A DNA stretch of 64,000 nt. It comes from Friedmanniella luteola (lineage in GTDB: Bacteria > Actinomycetota > Actinomycetes > Propionibacteriales > Propionibacteriaceae). This document shows, in pieces, positions 40,273 to 54,335 of the stretch. Numbering within the stretch: position 1 is the first letter of the stretch; each line of letters opens with the position of its first letter. The stretch spans positions 2,170,001 through 2,234,000 of the forward strand of contig NZ_LT629749.1 of the NCBI RefSeq assembly GCF_900105065.1, given 5' to 3'. Under the pieces are notes generated by a model that was not told the origin of the DNA, ran no database searches, and saw only the letters and a program-made list of their open reading frames with translations. Both the position numbers and the translations under genes were made by a program.

Positions 40273-40734
40273 ATGGAGCTGGGCAGCATCGAGCGCGAGA
40301 TCTACGTCGAGGCGTCGCCGGAGGTCGTCTTCGGGGTGGTGAGCAGCCCCGAGCACCTCCGGGCCTGGTGGCCGGACGACGCCCGCTACGCGCCGGTGCC
40401 CGGCGCGGTGGGGGAGATCGTCTTCGGCGAGGAGCAGACCGGCGGGACGGTCGTCGCGTTCACCGTCGTCGAGGTCGAGCCGCCGCGGCGGTTCGCGTTC
40501 CGCTGGACGCACCCGGCGGGCGAACCGGCCCGCGAGGGCAACTCGCTCCTGGTCACCTTCGACCTGGTGCCGTCCGGGGTGGGGACCCTGCTCACGATGA
40601 CCGAGACCGGTTTCCGCGCCCTGGGCTGGGAGGCGGCCGTCCTCGAGCAGCAGTACCGCGAGCACGTCACCGGCTGGGACTTCTACCTGCCCCGGCTGGC
40701 GCCCTACGTGGCGACCCTCGGGGTGCCCGCGTGA
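40273..40734 (+). CDS. SRPBCC/AHSA1-like protein
   Basis: 153 residues from the ATG at 40273, with AGGAGG 5 nt upstream. AHSA1/START-like fold: REIYVEASPEVVFGVVSSPE, LRAWWPDDARY, RRFAFRWTHPAGEPAREGNS, TLLTMTETGFRALGWEAAVL and YREHVTGWDFYLPRL. These proteins have a hydrophobic cavity; many are paired with ArsR regulators. The following ArsR gene overlaps by 4 nt (GTGA). Control by two CAAC-N5-GTTG operators is clear from the upstream DNA. Confidence 0.85.
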   Translation: MELGSIEREIYVEASPEVVFGVVSSPEHLRAWWPDDARYAPVPGAVGEIVFGEEQTGGTVVAFTVVEVEPPRRFAFRWTHPAGEPAREGNSLLVTFDLVPSGVGTLLTMTETGFRALGWEAAVLEQQYREHVTGWDFYLPRLAPYVATLGVPA

Positions 40735-41075
40735 GCGCGGTCGTCGAAGAGGTCGACGACGACCTGTGGTCCGCCATCGGCGACCCGACCCGGCGCCGGC
40801 TGCTCGACCTGCTGCTGGTCGAGGGTGGCGGGACGGCGACCTCGCTCGGCCACCAGCTGCCCGTCACCCGCCAGGCCGTGGCCAAGCACCTCGGCGTGCT
40901 GGACCGCGTCGGCCTGGTGCGGGCCACGCCGGCCGGGCGGGAGAAGCGGTACCGGGTGGACGACGCCCAGCTGACCCGGGCCGTGGCCCAGCTGTCCTCG
41001 GTCGGGTCGGCGTGGGACGCCCGGTTGCAGCGGATCAAGCGGATCGCCGAGACGATCCGGCGCCAGCAGGACTGA
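40731..41075 (+). CDS. ArsR-family transcriptional regulator
   Basis: 114 residues from the GTG at 40731. The winged helix covers most of the protein: DDLWSAIGDPTRRRLLDLLL, TATSLGHQLPVTRQAVAKHL and the wing AGREKRYRVDDAQLTR. No metal-binding cysteines (no ELCVCDL), so it is not an arsenic-type sensor. It belongs to the metal-independent ArsR group fused or coupled to SRPBCC proteins. Expected to bind the two dyads ahead of the operon and repress itself. The candidate dif site lies 64 nt after its stop. Confidence 0.88.
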   Translation: MSAVVEEVDDDLWSAIGDPTRRRLLDLLLVEGGGTATSLGHQLPVTRQAVAKHLGVLDRVGLVRATPAGREKRYRVDDAQLTRAVAQLSSVGSAWDARLQRIKRIAETIRRQQD

Positions 41076-41138
41076 CGAGGCAGAGGGAGGGACGCGGGAT
41101 GGTGGAGATCTGCCCAGGATCGCGGTCCGCTCCGGCCT

Positions 41139-41166
41139 ATCTGACATAATGTCGCTTATCGGACTG
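41139..41166 (-). other. Candidate dif site (XerC/XerD recombination, chromosome terminus)
   Basis: On the minus strand the 28 bp include CCGATAA, a 3-bp middle and ACATTATGTCA. The actinobacterial dif consensus, as I recall it, has CCGATAAT followed by two variable bases and ACATTATGTCAAGT. The right (XerD-type) arm ACATTATGTCA is exact, the left arm is CCGATAA exact, and mismatches fall in the centre and the two outer ends. It is an AT-rich island in very GC-rich DNA, in a noncoding gap between two converging genes. Gene orientation flips around it. Confidence 0.7.
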
Positions 41167-41197
41167 GCACCGGGGGGTGTCGGGAGGGCCGGTGAGG

Positions 41198-42523
41198 TCA
41201 GCTCACCCGACGTCCGCTCAGCCGTGTCAGGCCGTACAGCGCGACGCCGACGGCGAGCAGCCCGAGGCCGTACAGCCAGACCGTGCCCTCCTGGCGCGTC
41301 AGCAGCAGGACGCACGACGCCACGCCGAGCACCGGGACGACGGCCGGCACCCGGAAGTGCGCGTGCTCGACGCGGTCGCGGCGCAGCACCAGGACGGCGA
41401 CGTTGGTGCTGATGAAGACGAACAGCAGGAGCAGCACGACGGTGCTGGCGAGCACCGACAGGTCGCCGACCAGCGTCAGCAGCATGGCCAGCACCGTGGT
41501 GGCCACGATCGCGACCGCCGGCGTCCGGCGGCCCGGCAGGACGCGGGCGAGGACGCCGGGCAGCAGCCCCTGCTCGGCCATCCCGTAGGTCACCCGGCTG
41601 GCCATGATCATGGTGAGCAGCGCGCCGTTGGCCACGGCGACCAGGGCGATCAGGCTGAACACCCAGGCCGGGATGCCGACGCCGGTGGCCTGGACGACGG
41701 CCAGCAGCGGGCCGCTCGAGGCGGACAGCTCGGCCGCCGGCAGGGCGATCGAGCTGGCCAGGCCGACGAGCACGTAGACGACGCCCGCGGTGACCAGGGC
41801 GCCGAACAGCGCCCGCGGGTAGGCGCGGCTGGGGTCGCGGACCTCCTCCGCGACGTTGGCGGAGGTCTCGAAGCCGACGAAGGAGTAGTAGGCGATCACC
41901 GCGGCCCCCAGGGTCGCCGCGGCCGGGCTGACGCCGGCCGGGAACTCGGTGACCCGGCCGACGTCGCCGCCGCCGCGGCCCAGCAGCACCGCCACCGTCA
42001 CGATGACGATCAGCAGCCCGCTGACCTCGACCACGGTCATCACGAGGTTGGTCCGCAGCGACTCGGCGATCCCGCGCGCGTTGAGCAGCGCGACCAGGCC
42101 GAGGAACACGACGGCGGCCGGCACGGCGGGCACGTCGAGGAAGGTCCCGAGGTAGTCCCCCGCGAACGCCAGGGCCAGGCCGGCGGCGCTGGTGACCCCG
42201 GCCGCCAGCATGGCGAAGCCGACCAGGAACGCGACCAGCGGGTTCCGGAAGGCGCGCTCGGCGAAGATCGCGGCTCCCCCGGCCCGCGGGTACTTCGTCA
42301 CCAGCTCCGCGTAGGAGCCGGCGGTCAGCAGCGCGAGCAGCAGGGCCACCGCCAGCGGCAGCCACAGCGCGCCGCCGACCTCCTGGGACAGCACGCCCAT
42401 CAGCGCGTAGATGCCGGCGCCGAGCACGTCGCCGAGGATGAAGACGAAGAGCAGGGGTCCGGTGATGCTCTGCCGGAGCTTCGACTCCCCCGTCGTCGTG
42501 CCGGGCTGGAGCTGGGTCGCCAT
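41198..42523 (-). CDS. APC-family amino acid permease
   Basis: 441 residues from the ATG at 42523; an in-frame start at 42577 is possible. Twelve membrane helices with the APC start LLFVFILGDVLGAGIYALMG, YAELVTKYPRAGGAAIFAER in helix 2-3, and the helix 6 region AAVIAYYSFVGFETSANVAE followed by EVRDPSRAYPRAL. This pattern fits cationic amino acid or amine transporters of the YfnA/CAT type. No neighbouring enzyme identifies the substrate. Confidence 0.85.
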   Translation of the reverse strand: MATQLQPGTTTGESKLRQSITGPLLFVFILGDVLGAGIYALMGVLSQEVGGALWLPLAVALLLALLTAGSYAELVTKYPRAGGAAIFAERAFRNPLVAFLVGFAMLAAGVTSAAGLALAFAGDYLGTFLDVPAVPAAVVFLGLVALLNARGIAESLRTNLVMTVVEVSGLLIVIVTVAVLLGRGGGDVGRVTEFPAGVSPAAATLGAAVIAYYSFVGFETSANVAEEVRDPSRAYPRALFGALVTAGVVYVLVGLASSIALPAAELSASSGPLLAVVQATGVGIPAWVFSLIALVAVANGALLTMIMASRVTYGMAEQGLLPGVLARVLPGRRTPAVAIVATTVLAMLLTLVGDLSVLASTVVLLLLFVFISTNVAVLVLRRDRVEHAHFRVPAVVPVLGVASCVLLLTRQEGTVWLYGLGLLAVGVALYGLTRLSGRRVS

Positions 42524-42620
42524 GGGGTGCCTGTCGCTGGAGGGATCAGCCCACGCCGTCAACAGCGCGGGCTCCACCCCCGGTACCCGGGGACGCGGCG
42601 CCCAACCCTGCGGACCCCGC

Positions 42621-47910: not shown

Positions 47911-48501
47911 TCAGCCGGCCGAGGCCGCCGCCTGCCTCTTCGCCGCCTTGACCGCCCGCTTGCTCTCCCGCACCTTGGCGAGGGACTCCTCGTCGACGAC
48001 GTCGGCGACCGAGCGGTGACCGTCCTGCCCGAAGTCGCCCGCCGCCTCCTGCCAGCCGGGAGGCTGCACGCCCCGCTGCTTCGCCAGCACCGCGACGAAG
48101 ATGGTCGCCTTCTCCGGCCCGAAGCCGGGCAGGGCGGTGATCGCCCGCTTCAGCTCGGCCCCGGTCGTCGCGCCCCGCCAGACGTTGCCCGCGTCGCCCT
48201 CGAACTGCTCCACCAGCACCTGGCAGACCTGCCGCACCCGCTTGGCCATCGCGCCCGGGAACCGGTGCACCGCCGGGCGCTCCGAGCAGAGCGCGACGAA
48301 CGCGTCCTCCTCCATCGCGGCGATGGCGGCCACGTCAAGCCGGCCGCCCATCCGCTGCGCGATCACCGCCGGCCCGGCGAAGGCCTTCTCCATCGGCACC
48401 TGCTGGTCCAGCACCATGCCCAGCAGCAGGGCGTTGTCGTCGGTGGTCAGCAGGTCGTCGGCGGCCGGGTCGCCGGTCAGCCAGATGCGGCGGGAGCTCA
48501 T
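47911..48501 (-). CDS. HhH-GPD-type base excision repair protein
   Basis: 196 residues. The helix-hairpin-helix motif is ITALPGFGPEKATIFVAVLA near residues 121-140. The N-terminal part (DDNALLLGMVLDQQVPMEKA) matches the start of the glycosylase core. It is shorter than full glycosylases and lacks an iron-sulfur cluster; the C-terminal tail is lysine/arginine-rich and may bind DNA. Lesion specificity unknown. The last bases are 17 nt from the MocR stop, tail to tail. A CAGACT hexamer 6 nt upstream suggests a leaderless mRNA. Confidence 0.83.
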   Translation of the reverse strand: MSSRRIWLTGDPAADDLLTTDDNALLLGMVLDQQVPMEKAFAGPAVIAQRMGGRLDVAAIAAMEEDAFVALCSERPAVHRFPGAMAKRVRQVCQVLVEQFEGDAGNVWRGATTGAELKRAITALPGFGPEKATIFVAVLAKQRGVQPPGWQEAAGDFGQDGHRSVADVVDEESLAKVRESKRAVKAAKRQAAASAG

Positions 48502-48507
48502 GCGCCC

Positions 48508-48513
48508 AGTCTG
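48508..48513 (-). promoter_or_regulatory. Candidate leaderless -10 of the HhH-GPD gene
   Basis: CAGACT on the minus strand, 6 nt before the ATG at 48501. Confidence 0.45.
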
Positions 48514-48541
48514 GTGCGGCGGGACCGGAGCCGCCAGCGCC

Positions 48542-48885
48542 TCACTCGTAGAGGACGTACTCCGGTCGTGGCCGCAGCGCCAGCACCTGCTCGGGGGTCA
48601 TCAGCGGTCCGGCCTCGGCGTCCTCGGTGCAGAAGAGCTTGAAGCCGGCGTGCACGTGCCCGGGCGGTCCGGTCCACCGCGCGGTAGGTGGCCTCCTTCG
48701 CCGCGCGCACGCCGATGCCGTCGACCGACTTCACGAGCGCCACCCCGCGGTGGTCGCGCAGGTCCCGCTCGCGGCGGACGATCGAGGGCGCCGGCTGGTG
48801 GTGCACCAGCACCTTCTCGGGCAGGTCGCCGGCCTTGAGACGTCGGCCCCCGGGCGGGTCGGTGACCGGCTCGCGGGCGGCGGGT
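48542..48885 (-). pseudogene. Truncated, frameshifted remnant of an actinobacterial secreted/lipoprotein family gene
   Basis: Two minus-strand frames together resemble the C-terminal third of a conserved actinobacterial family (pattern DLPEK-x-L-x-VHQ, then VDG-x-G and GFKLF-x-ED). The first frame reads LKAGDLPEKVLVHHQPAPSI and VALVKSVDGIGVRAAKEATY. The second reads GHVHAGFKLFCTEDAEAGPL and EQVLALRPRPEYVLYE, and ends at 48542. The frame changes near 48655-48670 at a CCCGGG tract, consistent with one inserted base. The N-terminal two thirds are missing. The family match is from memory, so moderate. Confidence 0.55.
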
Positions 48886-48915
48886 GAACGCCCTGACCAG
48901 GGGCGGGTCGCGGTG

Positions 48916-48921
48916 TAGCGT
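48916..48921 (+). promoter_or_regulatory. Leaderless -10 hexamer of the LacI gene
   Basis: TAGCGT ends 7 nt before the ATG at 48929; it favours this start over an in-frame upstream one at 48884. Confidence 0.6.
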
Positions 48922-48928
48922 GACCGCC

Positions 48929-50053
48929 ATGTCCACGGGCACCGCCTCGTCGCGCGACGCGGCCCCGGGCGCCGACAGCGGCGCCCCCCGGGACGACGGG
49001 TCGCGGACGGCGCCCGCGGACGCGACGCTGGACGGCGGCGTCCGGCCGGTCCGGGGGCAGCCCACCCTGGAGATGGTGGCGGCGGCCTCCGGTGTCAGCC
49101 GCTCGACCGTGTCGCGGGTCGTCAACCGCTCCCCCAACGTCCGGCCGGAGGTCGCCGCCGCCGTGCAGCGGGCCATCGACGACCTCAACTACGTGCCCAA
49201 CCGGGCCGCCCGCTCGCTCGCCGGCCGGCACACCTACGCCATCGCGCTGCTGGTGCCGGAGGACGCGACCCGCTTCTTCGGCGACCCGTACTTCGCGTCC
49301 ATCGTGCAGGGCATCACCGGCGCGCTCGAGTCCAGCGACTACGTGCTCAACCTGCTGGTGGCCCGCGACGGCGCCGGCGGGAAGACCCGCCGCTACCTGC
49401 AGGGCGGGAACGTCGACGGCGCCCTCGTGGTGTCCCACCACCCCACCAACACCGATCTCCGCGACATCAACGCCAGCCTGCCCGTCGTCTTCGGCGGCCG
49501 ACCGGCCGTACCGGACCTCGACCCCTGCTACAGCGTCGACGTCGACAACGTCGGGGGCGCCCGGCTGGCCGCGGCGCACCTGGTCGGCCTGGGACGGCGT
49601 CGGATCGGCACGGTGACCGGTCCCCTCGACATGCCCGCCGCCGTCGACCGGCTCGCGGGCTGGCGGCAGGTGCTGGAGACGGCCGGACGGCCTCCGGACG
49701 CGGTGGTGTCGGGCGACTTCACGACGGCCGGCGGGGCCGCCGCGATGCGGGACCTGCTCGCGCGGGTGCCCGATCTCGACGCCGTCTTCGTGGCCAACGA
49801 CCTGATGGCCCGCGGCGCGCTCACGGTGCTGACCGAGCGGGGGCTCGACGTGCCCGGCGACGTCGCGGTGGTCGGCTACGACGACAGCCCGGCCGCCATC
49901 TCGGGCGACCTGCCGCTGAGCACCGTCAGCCAGCCCTCGACGGCCATGGGCGCCCGGATGACCGAGATGCTGCTGGGACTGCTCGCGGGCCGGGAACCCG
50001 AGAGCCGGGCCTGCGTGCTGCAGACCCGGCTCGTGCTGCGGGCGACCGCCTGA
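48929..50053 (+). CDS. LacI-family transcriptional regulator
   Basis: 374 residues. A disordered N-terminal extension of about 45 residues precedes the HTH (TLEMVAAASGVSRSTVSRVV followed by NRSPNVRPEV). The periplasmic-binding-like sensor domain covers about 105-374 (YAIALLVPEDATRFFGDPYF, ASLPVVFGGRPA, VAVVGYDDSPAAISGDLPLS). It should bind a sugar or nucleoside-type effector. No sugar transport operon adjoins, so targets are elsewhere or unknown. Converges on lpd. Confidence 0.9.
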   Translation: MSTGTASSRDAAPGADSGAPRDDGSRTAPADATLDGGVRPVRGQPTLEMVAAASGVSRSTVSRVVNRSPNVRPEVAAAVQRAIDDLNYVPNRAARSLAGRHTYAIALLVPEDATRFFGDPYFASIVQGITGALESSDYVLNLLVARDGAGGKTRRYLQGGNVDGALVVSHHPTNTDLRDINASLPVVFGGRPAVPDLDPCYSVDVDNVGGARLAAAHLVGLGRRRIGTVTGPLDMPAAVDRLAGWRQVLETAGRPPDAVVSGDFTTAGGAAAMRDLLARVPDLDAVFVANDLMARGALTVLTERGLDVPGDVAVVGYDDSPAAISGDLPLSTVSQPSTAMGARMTEMLLGLLAGREPESRACVLQTRLVLRATA

Positions 50054-50078
50054 CCGCTCGGTCGGCCGTGCTCGGTCC

Positions 50079-51479
50079 TCAGAGGTTGATCATGTGGCCC
50101 GAGATGCCGTGCGCGGCCTCGAGCAGTGCCTCCGACAGGGTCGGGTGGGCGTGGATGTTCCGGGCGACCTCGTCGGCCGTCAGGTCCCACAGCTGGGCCA
50201 GCGTCAGCTCCGGCAGCAGCTCCGTGACGTCCGGGCCGATCATGTGCACGCCGAGGATCTCGTTGTGGGCACTGTCGGCGATCAGCTTGACGAAGCCGAC
50301 GGCCTCGCCGAGCCCGTGCGCCTTGCCGTTCGCGGTGAACGGGAACTTCGACACCTTGACGTCGTAGCCCTTGTCCTTCGCCTGCGCCTCGGTGTAGCCG
50401 AAGGACGCGACCTGCGGCTGGCAGTAGGTGGCCCGCGGGATCATGTCGTAGTTGATCGGCATGGTCTCGGCGCCCGCGATGGTCTCGGCCGCCACGATGC
50501 CCTGCGCCTCCGCGGTGTGGGCCAGCAGCAGCTTGGCCGTCACGTCGCCGATGGCGTAGATGTGCGGCACGTTGGTGCGCATGTGGTCGTCGATGGCGAT
50601 GGCGCCGCGTTCGGTGAGCTGGACGCCCGTCTTCTCCAGGCCGTAGCCGGTGGTCCGCGGGGCGAAGCCGATGGCCTGCATGACCTTGTCGGCCTCCAGC
50701 ACCGTCGCGTCGCCGCCCGCCGCCGGGGAGACGGTGACCTTGACCTTGTCGCCCGAGTCGTCGATCTTCTCGACCTTGGTGCTGGTCATCAGCGTGACGC
50801 CCAGCTTCTTGTAGTGCTTCTGCAGCTCGGCGGAGACCTCGGGGTCCTCGAGCGGGAGCATCCGGTCGAGGAACTCCACGATCGTCACCTGGACGCCGTA
50901 GTTGGCGAGCACGTAGGCGAACTCGGTGCCGATGGCGCCGGAGCCCGCGATGATGATCGACTCGGGCAGCTCGCCGGTGAGGATCTGCTCCTCGTACGTC
51001 ACGACGCGGTCGGTGACCTCGGTGCCCGGCAGCAGCCGGGTGGTGGCGCCGGCGGCGATGATCAGGTTGTCGAAGCTCACCTGGGTGGTGGTGCCGCCCG
51101 GGCCCTCGACGCTGACGTCGTGGTCGCCGGTGAACGTCGCCCAGCCGTCGATCTCGGTGATCTTGTTCTTCTTCATCAGGAAGTGGACGCCCTTGGCCAT
51201 CCGGTCGGCCACGCTCCGGCTGCGCTTGAAGGCGGCCCCGAAGTCGAAGGTCACGTCCCCGCTGATGCCGAACGTCTTCGCCTCGTGGTTGAAGATGTGG
51301 GCGATCTCGGCGTTGCGCAGCAGCGACTTCGTGGGGATGCAGCCGACGTTGTTGCACACCCCGCCCCAGTACTTGAGCTCGATGATGGCGGTCGACAGCC
51401 CCAGCTGGGCGGCGCGGACAGCGGCCACGTAGCCGCCGGGTCCCGCACCCAGCACGACGACGTCATAGTGATCGGTCAT
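50079..51479 (-). CDS. lpdA: Dihydrolipoyl dehydrogenase
   Basis: 466 residues from the ATG at 51479, set by a leaderless TAGAGT hexamer 7 nt upstream. It reoxidises dihydrolipoamide in 2-oxoacid dehydrogenases and the glycine cleavage system. The FAD Rossmann motif is [14 protein letters not shown]; the redox disulfide is C42-NNVG-C47; NAD motif [17 protein letters not shown]; the C-terminal catalytic histidine is in [25 protein letters not shown] differs slightly from the common CLNVGCIPSKAL. It could serve GcvH encoded at 7 kb. Confidence 0.96.
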
Positions 51480-51486
51480 GACCTCA

Positions 51487-51492
51487 ACTCTA
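51487..51492 (-). promoter_or_regulatory. Leaderless -10 hexamer of lpd
   Basis: TAGAGT on the minus strand, 7 nt before the ATG at 51479. Confidence 0.6.
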
Positions 51493-51592
51493 GGGGCGGC
51501 GGGTGAGCTCGGGCGAACCGACCGCCGGCGATCGCTCACGGCGCAACCCGGCGGTCTCGTGGGCCAGGACACACCGAAGATCCGGAACAAAT

Positions 51593-51611
51593 CTCACATG
51601 TGAGTTATTGT
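51593..51611 (+). promoter_or_regulatory. Operator and leaderless promoter of the XRE-MurA gene
   Basis: CTCACATGTGAG (51593-51604) is a perfect 12-bp palindrome in an AT-richer patch. The -10 TATTGT (51606-51611) abuts it and ends 7 nt before the GTG at 51619. A dimer of the encoded XRE domain is the likely ligand (inference). Confidence 0.65.
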
Positions 51612-51618
51612 CCTCCGC

Positions 51619-53145
51619 GTGACTGACACCTACGCCGACCGGATCGGCGGGCTCATCCGCGACGCCCGCAAGCACCGGGGGCTCACCCAGACCCAGTTGG
51701 CCGACGTGCTCGGGACCAGTCAGAGTGCCGTGCACCGCATCGAGGCCGGCAACCAGAACCTCAGCCTGGACATGGTGAACCGCATCGCCGAGGCGCTCGA
51801 GTCCCCCCTCATCACCGTCGGCCCGAACGGCCCGCTGCACCTGCGCGTGCAGGGCGGGGTCAAGCTCTCCGGCCGCATCGCCGTCCGCTCGTCCAAGAAC
51901 GCGGCCGTCGCGCTCCTCTGCGCCAGCCTCATCAACCGCGGCCGCACCGTCATCCGCGGCATCGCCCGGATCGAGGAGGTCAACCGGATCGTCGAGGTGC
52001 TGACCAGCATCGGCGTGCGGGCGACCTGGCTGAACGGCGGCAGCGACCTCGAGCTGGTCCGGCCGGACGAGCTGGACCTCGCGGCCATGGACGTCGAGGC
52101 CGCCCGCCGGACCCGCAGCGTGATCATGTTCCTCGGCCCGCTGCTGCACTCCTACCCCAGCTTCCAGCTGCCCTACGCCGGCGGCTGCGACCTCGGCGCC
52201 CGCACCATCGAGCCGCACCTGCAGGTGCTCCGCCGCTTCGGCCTCGACGTGGTGCCGACCGAGGGCTTCTACCAGTGCGACGTCGACGAGTCGGTCGAGC
52301 CGACCCGGCCGGTCACCCTGACCGAGCGCGGCGACACCGTCACCGAGAACGCCCTGCTCGCGGCCGCGCTGTCCCCCGGCGTCACCGTGCTGCGGAACGC
52401 CAGCCCGAACTACATGGTCCAGGACCTCTGCGTCTTCCTGACCCACCTGGGCGTGGAGATCGACGGCATCGGCACCACGACCCTGCGCGTGCACGGCGTC
52501 GAGAGCATCAACGCCGACGTCGAGTTCGCCCCGTCGGAGGACCCGATCGAGGCGATGAGCCTGCTCACCGCGGCGATCGTCACCCAGTCCGAGCTCACCA
52601 TCGAGCGGGCGCCGATCGAGTTCCTCGAGATCGAGCTGGCGATCCTGGAGGAGATGGGCCTCGACTTCACCCTCAGCGAGGAGTACGTCGCCGACAACGG
52701 CCACACCCGGCTGGTCGACCTGACGGTGCGGCCCTCGACGCTGCGCTCGCCGATCGACAAGATCCACCCGATGCCGTTCCCCGGGCTGAACATCGACAAC
52801 CTGCCCTTCTTCGCGGTCATCGCGGCCACGGCCGAGGGCAAGACGATCATCCACGACTGGGTCTACGAGAACCGCGCCATCTACCTCACCGAGCTCAACC
52901 GGCTCGGCGCGCGCGTGCAGCTCCTCGACCCGCACCGGGTGATCGTCGAGGGCCCGACGCGCTGGCGCGGCACCCAGGTGGTCTGCCCGCCGGCCCTGCG
53001 GCCCGCCGTCTGCATCCTGCTCGGCATGCTCGCCGCGCGCGGTGAGTCGGTCCTGCGGGACGTCTACGTGATCAACCGCGGCTACGAGGACCTCGCCAAC
53101 CGCCTCAACGCCCTCGGCGCGAACATCGAGGTCTTCCGGGACTGA
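51619..53145 (+). CDS. XRE helix-turn-helix fused to a MurA-like (UDP-GlcNAc enolpyruvyltransferase) domain
   Basis: 508 residues. An XRE/Cro HTH occupies about residues 8-62 (GLIRDARKHRGLTQTQLADV, GTSQSAVHRIEAGNQNLSLD). From about 72 the protein is an EPSP-synthase-like fold with MurA residues kept: K93-N94 in SSKNAAV, the reactive cysteine C190 in the loop AGGCDLGAR, and an aspartate in FPGLNIDNLP like MurA Asp305. MurA adds enolpyruvate to UDP-GlcNAc in peptidoglycan synthesis. Here it may be active, or act as a sensor of UDP-GlcNAc/PEP controlling DNA binding. A palindromic operator on its own promoter points to autoregulation. Confidence 0.85.
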   Translation: MTDTYADRIGGLIRDARKHRGLTQTQLADVLGTSQSAVHRIEAGNQNLSLDMVNRIAEALESPLITVGPNGPLHLRVQGGVKLSGRIAVRSSKNAAVALLCASLINRGRTVIRGIARIEEVNRIVEVLTSIGVRATWLNGGSDLELVRPDELDLAAMDVEAARRTRSVIMFLGPLLHSYPSFQLPYAGGCDLGARTIEPHLQVLRRFGLDVVPTEGFYQCDVDESVEPTRPVTLTERGDTVTENALLAAALSPGVTVLRNASPNYMVQDLCVFLTHLGVEIDGIGTTTLRVHGVESINADVEFAPSEDPIEAMSLLTAAIVTQSELTIERAPIEFLEIELAILEEMGLDFTLSEEYVADNGHTRLVDLTVRPSTLRSPIDKIHPMPFPGLNIDNLPFFAVIAATAEGKTIIHDWVYENRAIYLTELNRLGARVQLLDPHRVIVEGPTRWRGTQVVCPPALRPAVCILLGMLAARGESVLRDVYVINRGYEDLANRLNALGANIEVFRD

Positions 53146-53468
53146 GCTGTCGGACCTCGCTCCGCTCGGTCGCAGATCGCGCTCGGGCCCGCCGTCTTCC
53201 TCCCTGCGCTCGCAGACGAAGAACGTGTCTGCTCGCTCCGGTCGTCCAGACGGCGGCGCGCGATCCGGTGCCGGTCGGGATCCGCAGCACGTCACCCCTC
53301 GGCTCCCGGTCCCCCCGCTCGATCGGGGCGATCGGTCGTCCGAGGGGTGTTGTGCGCTCCCGCCACGACCGGGCACCTTCGTGTCGTCGAGGCACCCTCT
53401 CGAGAGAGTGCCTCGACGTGCAGAGGGTGCCCGGGCACGGAGGTGCCCCTCCCACCTCCCCGGCGACC
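53146..53468. other. Intergenic region of nested hairpins between convergent genes
   Basis: No gene seen. Perfect dyads: GCAGAC/GTCTGC (53212-53231); CACCCCTCGG (53293-53302) with CCGAGGGGTG (53340-53349); a near-perfect 32-bp palindrome at 53386-53417 with arms GTCGAGGCAC/GTGCCTCGAC around CTCTCGAGAG; and GGGCAC-GGAG-GTGCCC (53433-53448). Likely bidirectional termination or a REP-like element. Confidence 0.65.
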
Positions 53469-54335
53469 TCAGCGCAGCCGCGTCGCCTCGAACGTCCGGC
53501 TGGGGGCGGCGATCTCGTCCTGACCGGCGACGAGCTGCAGCTCGGCCTGGCCGGAGCGGACGGTGACGTCGAGGACGCCGTGCACGACGGCGGCCGTGCG
53601 CGCGACCGAGGCGGCGACGTCACGGGTGCGCAGGTAGCTGGCCAGGAAGGTCGCGGCGGTGAGGTCGCCGGCGCCGGTGAAGGTGCGCGGCAGCAGCGGC
53701 GTGGTCACCTGCCAGGCACCCTCCCCGGAGACGGCCACCATGGCGATGGTGCCGGGTGCCGCCTCGGTGTGGACGACGCTGGTGACCAGCACGATGTCCG
53801 GACCCAGCGCGCGGGCGGCGGCGGCGGCGGCCAGCACCTCCGGCAGGGTCGACGTGCCCAGGCCGGTGAGCAGCTCCAGCTCGAACTGGTTCGGGGTGAT
53901 CAGCTGCGCCGCGGGGACCACCCGGTCCCGCATCAGCTCGGGGATGCCGTCGCGGACGTAGACCCCCCGGCCGACGTCGCCGAGCACCGGGTCGCAGCAG
54001 TAGAGGGCCGCGGGGTTGCGGGACCGGACCAGGTCCACCGCGTCCAGGATCACCGCCCCGACGTCAGCCCCGCCCTGGTAGCCCGAGAGCACGGCGTCGC
54101 AGCGGTCGAGCACGCCGCGCTCGTCGATCCCCCGGATCACCTCGGCGACGTCCTCGGCCCGGAGCAGCGGACCGCGCCAGCCGGGGTAGCCGGTGTGGTT
54201 GGAGAAGTGGACGGTGAGCACGGGCCACACCTCGACGCCCATCCGCATCAGCGGGAAGGTGGCGGCGCTGTTGCCGACGTGCCCGTAGGCCACCGAGGAC
54301 TGGATGGACAAGATGGTGGTCACGGCCGCCATCAT
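53469..54335 (-). CDS. pdxY: Pyridoxal kinase (PdxY-type)
   Basis: 288 residues from the ATG at 54335; ATG 54332 or GTG 54323 are also possible and change only the first few residues. The ribokinase-like fold begins ILSIQSSVAYGHVGNSAATF, with SNHTGYPGWRG in the substrate lid and FTGAGDLTAATFLASYL carrying the catalytic aspartate (GAGD for the common GTGD). It salvages pyridoxal to PLP with ATP, which supports PLP enzymes such as GcvP. It follows the DICT gene 23 nt downstream on the same strand. Confidence 0.9.
   Translation of the reverse strand: MMAAVTTILSIQSSVAYGHVGNSAATFPLMRMGVEVWPVLTVHFSNHTGYPGWRGPLLRAEDVAEVIRGIDERGVLDRCDAVLSGYQGGADVGAVILDAVDLVRSRNPAALYCCDPVLGDVGRGVYVRDGIPELMRDRVVPAAQLITPNQFELELLTGLGTSTLPEVLAAAAAARALGPDIVLVTSVVHTEAAPGTIAMVAVSGEGAWQVTTPLLPRTFTGAGDLTAATFLASYLRTRDVAASVARTAAVVHGVLDVTVRSGQAELQLVAGQDEIAAPSRTFEATRLR

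Follow-up and report, generated by a model that had tools for sequence, protein, structure and literature searches.

We identify a 28-bp element on the minus strand of the Friedmanniella luteola chromosome, at positions 41,139–41,166 of the window, as a chromosomal dif site of the known XerCD kind, a reading to which we assign a probability of about 0.97. By window we mean the whole 64,000-nt stretch that was analysed, which covers positions 2,170,001–2,234,000 of a single contig, 4,717,514 bp in length and with a GC content of about 74%. A first-pass annotation had proposed a candidate dif here, and that identity is borne out by a sequence that is unique in the genome and conserved among relatives, by its location opposite dnaA, by the presence of Xer and FtsK genes, and by a heptamer, GGGGGAG, whose polarity switches at the site.

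The minus strand of the element reads CAGTCCGATAAGCGACATTATGTCAGAT (plus strand, ATCTGACATAATGTCGCTTATCGGACTG), or CAGTCCGATAA-GCGACA-TTATGTCAGAT when divided into its arms and centre, and this 11 + 6 + 11 bp layout is, judged by sequence, the anatomy of an XerCD dif site. The two blocks that the first-pass annotation had seen framing a short centre, CCGATAA and ACATTATGTCA, are both present on that strand, and its description of an AT-rich 28-bp island in a noncoding gap between converging genes proves accurate: the 28-mer has 43% GC within a 122-bp gap of 67% GC, and a GC content as low or lower is found in 49 of the 63,973 28-mers of the window, the element itself counted. The gap runs from the end of an ArsR-type regulator gene (41,075, plus strand) to the stop codon of a permease gene (41,198–41,200, minus strand), the best NCBIfam model for which, TIGR00909, scores under its cut-off, with PF13520 above its own. 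The two arms share dyad symmetry at 5 of 11 positions, compared with 6 of 11 in what we take to be the E. coli dif sequence. In E. coli dif, one arm binds XerC and the other XerD; by analogy, we infer that both recombinases would bind and cleave the 28-mer.

Table 1. Features of the putative dif site and its surroundings in the window, and of the cassette-like arrays in two relatives (coordinates within the named locus)
Feature	Position	Strand	Basis
dif core, 28 bp, CAGTCCGATAAGCGACATTATGTCAGAT	41139..41166	-	Sequence; single exact genome match; conservation in the genus
Left 11-bp arm CAGTCCGATAA, presumed XerC-binding	41156..41166	-	Sequence; assigned by analogy with E. coli
6-bp centre GCGACA between two presumed cleavage points	41150..41155	-	Sequence
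Right 11-bp arm TTATGTCAGAT, presumed XerD-binding	41139..41149	-	Sequence; assigned by analogy
122-bp gap holding the site, between converging genes	41076..41197	.	67% GC
ArsR-type HTH regulator gene, left neighbour, outside the system	40731..41075	+	NF033788, 56.5 bits (cut-off 55); PF12840
Amino-acid permease gene, right neighbour, outside the system	41198..42577	-	PF13520 above cut-off
GGGGGAG, nearest copy left of dif, pointing to dif	40410..40416	+	
GGGGGAG, nearest copy right of dif, pointing to dif	42274..42280	-	
G103 array (C4)	L134 389-8022		
G103 array (C8)	L135 9883-10332		
G103 array (C10)	L136 436-3565		
G114 array (C12)	L160 7037-11895		
G114 array (C23)	L161 132-1025		

We searched the window, shuffled sequences and the whole genome with the pattern CCGATAANNNACATTATGTC, allowing up to 3 mismatches, which gave one match in the window and none in 100 shuffles. 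As the first-pass annotation had expected, the 28-mer occurs as a single exact copy in the 4.72-Mb contig, with no equally good copy and no better match elsewhere, the runner-up at position 3,001,141 having 3 mismatches. A tyrosine-recombinase match is found about 0.5 kb from this runner-up, and GC is lower there (68.3%); we considered the runner-up as a second dif and rejected it, because at the 3-mismatch level the reversed control gives hits in 9 of 20 genus genomes, so that such matches are expected by chance.

The sole DnaA-family match in the genome lies at 4,625,443–4,625,928, and about 7.5 kb from it, at 4,633,477, is a parS-like palindrome with one mismatch to what we take to be the parS consensus. 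On the assumption of a circular chromosome replicating from dnaA, about 2.41 Mb separate the site from dnaA in one direction and about 2.30 Mb in the other (51.2/48.8% of the contig), which places the 28-mer opposite the presumed origin marked by dnaA and the parS-like site, and in the terminus region. Kineococcus, with a genome similar in size and GC to the present one, is described as having a linear chromosome (PMC2587704). The first-pass annotation had gone further and placed the replication terminus at this very point; in our reading the site marks the terminus region and is presumably the point towards which FtsK translocates, and we drop the exact meeting of the forks, since dif need not coincide with the point where they meet, as noted in two accounts (PMC3025954, PMC13342612).

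The skew switch that the first-pass annotation expected here turned out to be uninformative. Across 55 pieces (the window, split at the site, and 53 further 20-kb stretches, together 1.124 of 4.72 Mb, or 24%), mean GC skew is +0.0004 on one replichore vs. -0.0045 on the other (Mann-Whitney p = 0.36), AT skew likewise shows no replichore difference (p = 0.95), and GC skew inside the window alone is mere local wobble. With the replichores alike, we dropped GC skew as a terminus test and did not count it against dif. Separately, the region at about 48,000–54,000 of the window has a GC content of 0.70–0.72 vs. 0.73–0.77 in the other segments, and is possibly acquired DNA.

Conservation was examined at three taxonomic levels. 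Within the genus, 18 of 20 genomes, the present one included, carry the motif at 0–2 mismatches, which bears out the comparison that the first-pass annotation had proposed, and the other two (G013 and G018, both many-contig assemblies) have 3-mismatch matches only. Positions 3–12, 16–22 and 24–25 are invariant across the 18 sites, partly by construction as the search pattern fixes most inner-arm bases, yet positions 3, 4, 12 and 25 lie outside the fixed pattern and are invariant too; variation falls at positions 1–2, 13–15 (within the centre), 23 and 26–28. The centre had been described as differing from an actinobacterial consensus (CCGATAAT), a description that fails for the genus: position 12 is G in 18/18 sites, so the centre is not deviant there. 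Mean pairwise identity among the 18 sites is 0.87 in the core but only 0.28 and 0.29 in the 100-bp flanks upstream and downstream, respectively, indicating that the element is retained amid unconserved surroundings.

At the family level, 89 of 97 genomes have a match with at most 1 mismatch (none for the reversed-pattern control), rising to 77 of 79 among those with a completeness of 90% or more and a contamination of 5% or less; the match occurs once in 85 of the 97, several times in 4 and not at all in 8. At the class level, where the sampled genomes had a completeness of 90% or more and were searched for exact inner arms with the centre left free, 131 of 216 have a match, 127 of them once (control 0), and 85 have none. 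Two families, f18 (5.8–11 Mb) and f23 (1.2–2.2 Mb), each with 0 of 20 genomes matching, supply 40 of these 85, the other 45 being scattered across other families; our guesses are that the loss in f18, which its genome sizes lead us to suspect of being Streptomyces-like, is tied to linear chromosomes and that in f23 the site has diverged. Among named genomes—a set from which our own genome was possibly left out—the exact 24-mer CCGATAAGCGACATTATGTCAGAT was found in Mycobacterium arosiense and one Nocardioides strain.

GGGGGAG was picked as a strand-biased oligomer from 43 pieces, all of them over 250 kb away from the site, where the two orientations number 204 vs. 32 (z = 11.2, against a 95% limit of 5.05 for the largest z obtained when replichore labels are randomised). 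Of its 93 copies in the 12 pieces held out from this choice, 84 are oriented towards the site; across all 55 pieces the figure is 288 of 329. The best single switch falls at 2,210,410–2,212,274, an interval of 1.86 kb that includes the 28-mer, and inside the window the plus strand carries 17 of the 18 copies to the left of dif and the minus strand 9 of the 9 to its right. Of the 17 relatives with a clear site, twelve were analysed on long contigs (G014–G017 were left out): within 20 kb on each side of dif, 138 of their 141 GGGGGAG copies are oriented to dif, and the best switch interval contains dif in 12/12. One relative, G008, has a 7.24-Mb contig (C1) that starts 147 bp before its dif (L023 147–166). 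We rejected a linear end at dif for this contig, as GGGGGAG copies across the two contig ends are oriented towards dif in 5/5 and 8/8 cases; the two ends share no similarity, and the contig fits an arbitrarily opened circle.

We give almost no weight to the possibility that the 28-mer is a secondary dif-like site from a mobile element using host XerCD. Relatives do have extra dif-like sites (G004:C22, G017:C436, G055, G103 and G190), but the 28-mer is the genome's sole exact copy and lies opposite dnaA, the GGGGGAG polarity flips within 1.86 kb around it, and the same core persists in relatives amid unrelated flanks; a pattern search of the genome also found no second, better dif with a polarity switch of its own. 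It is likewise very hard to credit that the element arose by chance as an AT-rich inverted repeat, or that it acts as a terminator of transcription or an operator between the converging genes. The sequence does hold an inverted repeat around a single central base, GACATAATGTC, in a gap between two 3' gene ends, but the absence of any match in 100 shuffles and the retention of the core without its flanks in 18/20 genus genomes argue otherwise; a consensus scan of 40,900–41,400 gave no terminator-like and no promoter-like site, a weak point given that about none would be expected anyway.

For the motif, as distinct from the dif site, an alternative origin is unlikely but carries appreciable weight, namely that gene-strand or replication mutation bias, and not selection for guiding FtsK, produced the polarity. 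Mutation alone can yield strand-biased oligomers, GGGGGAG is not over-represented in the window (27 copies vs. a shuffle mean of 32.8, so that its orientation alone is unusual), and its density rises unevenly towards dif, with values of 24.4–29.5 per 100 kb and no even trend in the middle distance bins. Against this, density peaks within 50 kb of the site (39.0 copies per 100 kb oriented towards it) and is lowest beyond 1.5 Mb (20.6). Copies oriented towards the site also number 118 of the 132 that fall in leading-strand genes, 87 of the 102 in lagging-strand genes and 83 of the 95 elsewhere (as called by a simple gene caller), and with polarity about equal in the two gene classes the bias appears independent of gene strand; general strand mutation bias, moreover, looks weak because GC skew is absent. 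We regard GGGGGAG as a candidate FtsK guide motif.

The genome also encodes what would be the machinery acting at the site. Among 13 tyrosine-recombinase matches, the two strongest are Xer-like (L003 and L004). By best model, L003 appears XerC-like (NCBIfam TIGR02224, 304 bits vs. a cut-off of 335) and L004 XerD-like (best equivalog TIGR02225, 323 bits vs. 330), each below its equivalog cut-off; both exceed the cut-off of the broader PRK00283 model (279), at 285 and 359 bits, respectively. After the xerD-like gene comes a reading frame that we judged by eye to be ParA-like. In the FtsK gene (L045), the 4TM, alpha, motor and gamma domains all score over their Pfam cut-offs.

How dif, XerCD and FtsK work together is known from the E. 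coli system. By analogy, an odd number of crossovers between sister chromosomes would yield a dimer; at septation FtsK would load on the DNA and be guided by polar motifs, pumping until the two dif copies meet; its gamma domain would then activate XerD, and XerD and XerC would swap strands on each side of the 6-bp centre, turning the dimer into two monomers.

Predictions of actinobacterial dif have been published for a set of 66 genomes, actinobacterial or others from a single phylum (PMC3025954). The present site resembles actinobacterial dif in its length of 28 bp, its inner arms (CCGATAA and TTATGTC), its 6-bp centre, its occurrence once per chromosome, and its intergenic location near the point opposite dnaA. 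It differs at position 2, which is A in the present genome alone and T in the other 17 clear genus sites, and its centre, GCGACA, is of the genus type (GC in 16/18) and not of the TGCACA type common in the class sample. The motif can be compared with KOPS, quoted as GGGNAGGG in one survey (PMC13342612), and with AIMS, described as polar guide motifs (PMC5993296): like these, GGGGGAG is G-rich, runs 5'–3' towards dif, switches at dif and is strongest near it. Unlike KOPS, it departs from GGGNAGGG and is not over-represented in the window, and its connection to FtsK would be by analogy. Our literature search on GGGGGAG and FtsK turned up only papers that, to judge by their titles, concern other subjects, and the available portions of PMC13277299, PMC11898615, PMC5993296 and PMC13342612 name no actinobacterial KOPS motif.

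Several relatives carry dif-like sites beyond the chromosomal one. Second, lone sites occur at G004:C22:15615 (L037 1498–1524), G017:C436:618 and G055:C1:103300, with inner arms intact or nearly so and differing centres, and possibly belong to Xer-using mobile elements or plasmids. In G190, from the same order, a standard-looking dif is accompanied by three further sites (C8:18889, C8:49132 and C11:26296), whose inner arms are exact and whose centres differ from one another.

A different arrangement, outside the window, came from the family scan of G103, whose eleven matches comprise one dif and ten copies of CCGATAACGTGCGTTATGTC, the latter sitting inside a repeat of 36 bp that is either GGTGGCAACAAGCCCGATAACGTGCGTTATGTCACC or a variant. 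A search with a longer pattern, allowing up to 3 mismatches, finds the repeat 13 times in G103, 9 times in G114 and not at all in 17 of the 19 genomes of their genus. The repeats, none more than about 8 kb from a contig end, are spaced 0.4–3.1 kb apart and have reading frames in the intervals. Each arm shares its inner 7 bases with dif, the centre being CGTGCG vs. GGTACA in G103's own dif. Ten frames in or beside the G103 arrays were scanned against Pfam: five lack any match, and the others correspond to an HTH_3 protein, an HTH_17 protein, Cas2, a partial Cas1 and a weak AbiEii match just under its cut-off.

Some segments shared between or within the two genomes end at the repeats. L135 9883–10296 is exactly one repeat plus one interval and matches L160 10211–9781 at 93.7%, of which one end coincides with a repeat and the other (9781) lies 185 bp away from one; L160 11417–11859 fills an inter-repeat space and matches L160 8095–8536 at 95.3%, of which neither end reaches the flanking repeats. 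Each of the two homologous pairs, then, has one copy whose two ends coincide exactly with repeats; in the partner copy, one end (9781) or both (8095 and 8536) lie 65–185 bp from the nearest repeat.

The Pfam matches to Cas2 and partial Cas1 come from frames (L134 8049–8853) that adjoin the end repeat of the G103:C4 array, and the repeat-plus-Cas2 stretch recurs in G103:C10 (L136 3530–3907) at 86.8% over 378 bp. Together with the 36-bp repeat length, these frames hint at CRISPR arrays, or at a repeat that may once have been a CRISPR repeat; set against the arrays being CRISPR arrays are intervals of 0.4–3.1 kb containing reading frames and the 9 repeats of L134, none of which show a 30-bp spacing. 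Viral contigs gave no match to an exact 25-mer taken from the repeat.

The arrays look like a gene-cassette system worked by XerCD and comparable to the dif modules of Acinetobacter. Neighbouring sites in those modules alternate in orientation, an alternation absent from G103:C4 (9/9 repeats the same) and G114:C12 (- - + + + + -), where the runs of same-orientation sites are integron-like. In the dif (pdif) modules described on Acinetobacter plasmids (PMC13141974, PMC6449649), as here, genes lie between sites with dif-like arms, and some of the shared segments here end at sites; the arrays differ in belonging to an actinobacterial family, in their near-invariant 36-bp repeat, and in the Cas1/Cas2-like frames beside the end site. 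No paper on actinobacterial dif modules was among the literature matches listed. We tentatively propose, at a little short of even odds, that the family's Xer site has two jobs: as a lone chromosomal dif with GGGGGAG pointers and, in G103 and G114, as a repeat bounding interchangeable cassettes, a half of the proposal that rests on draft contigs and would presumably involve host XerCD.

In Deinococcus radiodurans, a survey could not confidently identify dif or a polar KOPS, for which high GC was blamed (PMC13342612); here, in contrast, both the dif and the polar-motif signals are clear at about 74% GC. Where GC skew fails, the dif reading anchors the terminus region to a single 28-bp site on a chromosome very rich in GC, and GGGGGAG offers a directly testable guide-motif candidate for FtsK in this actinobacterial branch. 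If the cassette reading is true, the arrays of G103 and G114 would extend the dif-module idea beyond Acinetobacter.
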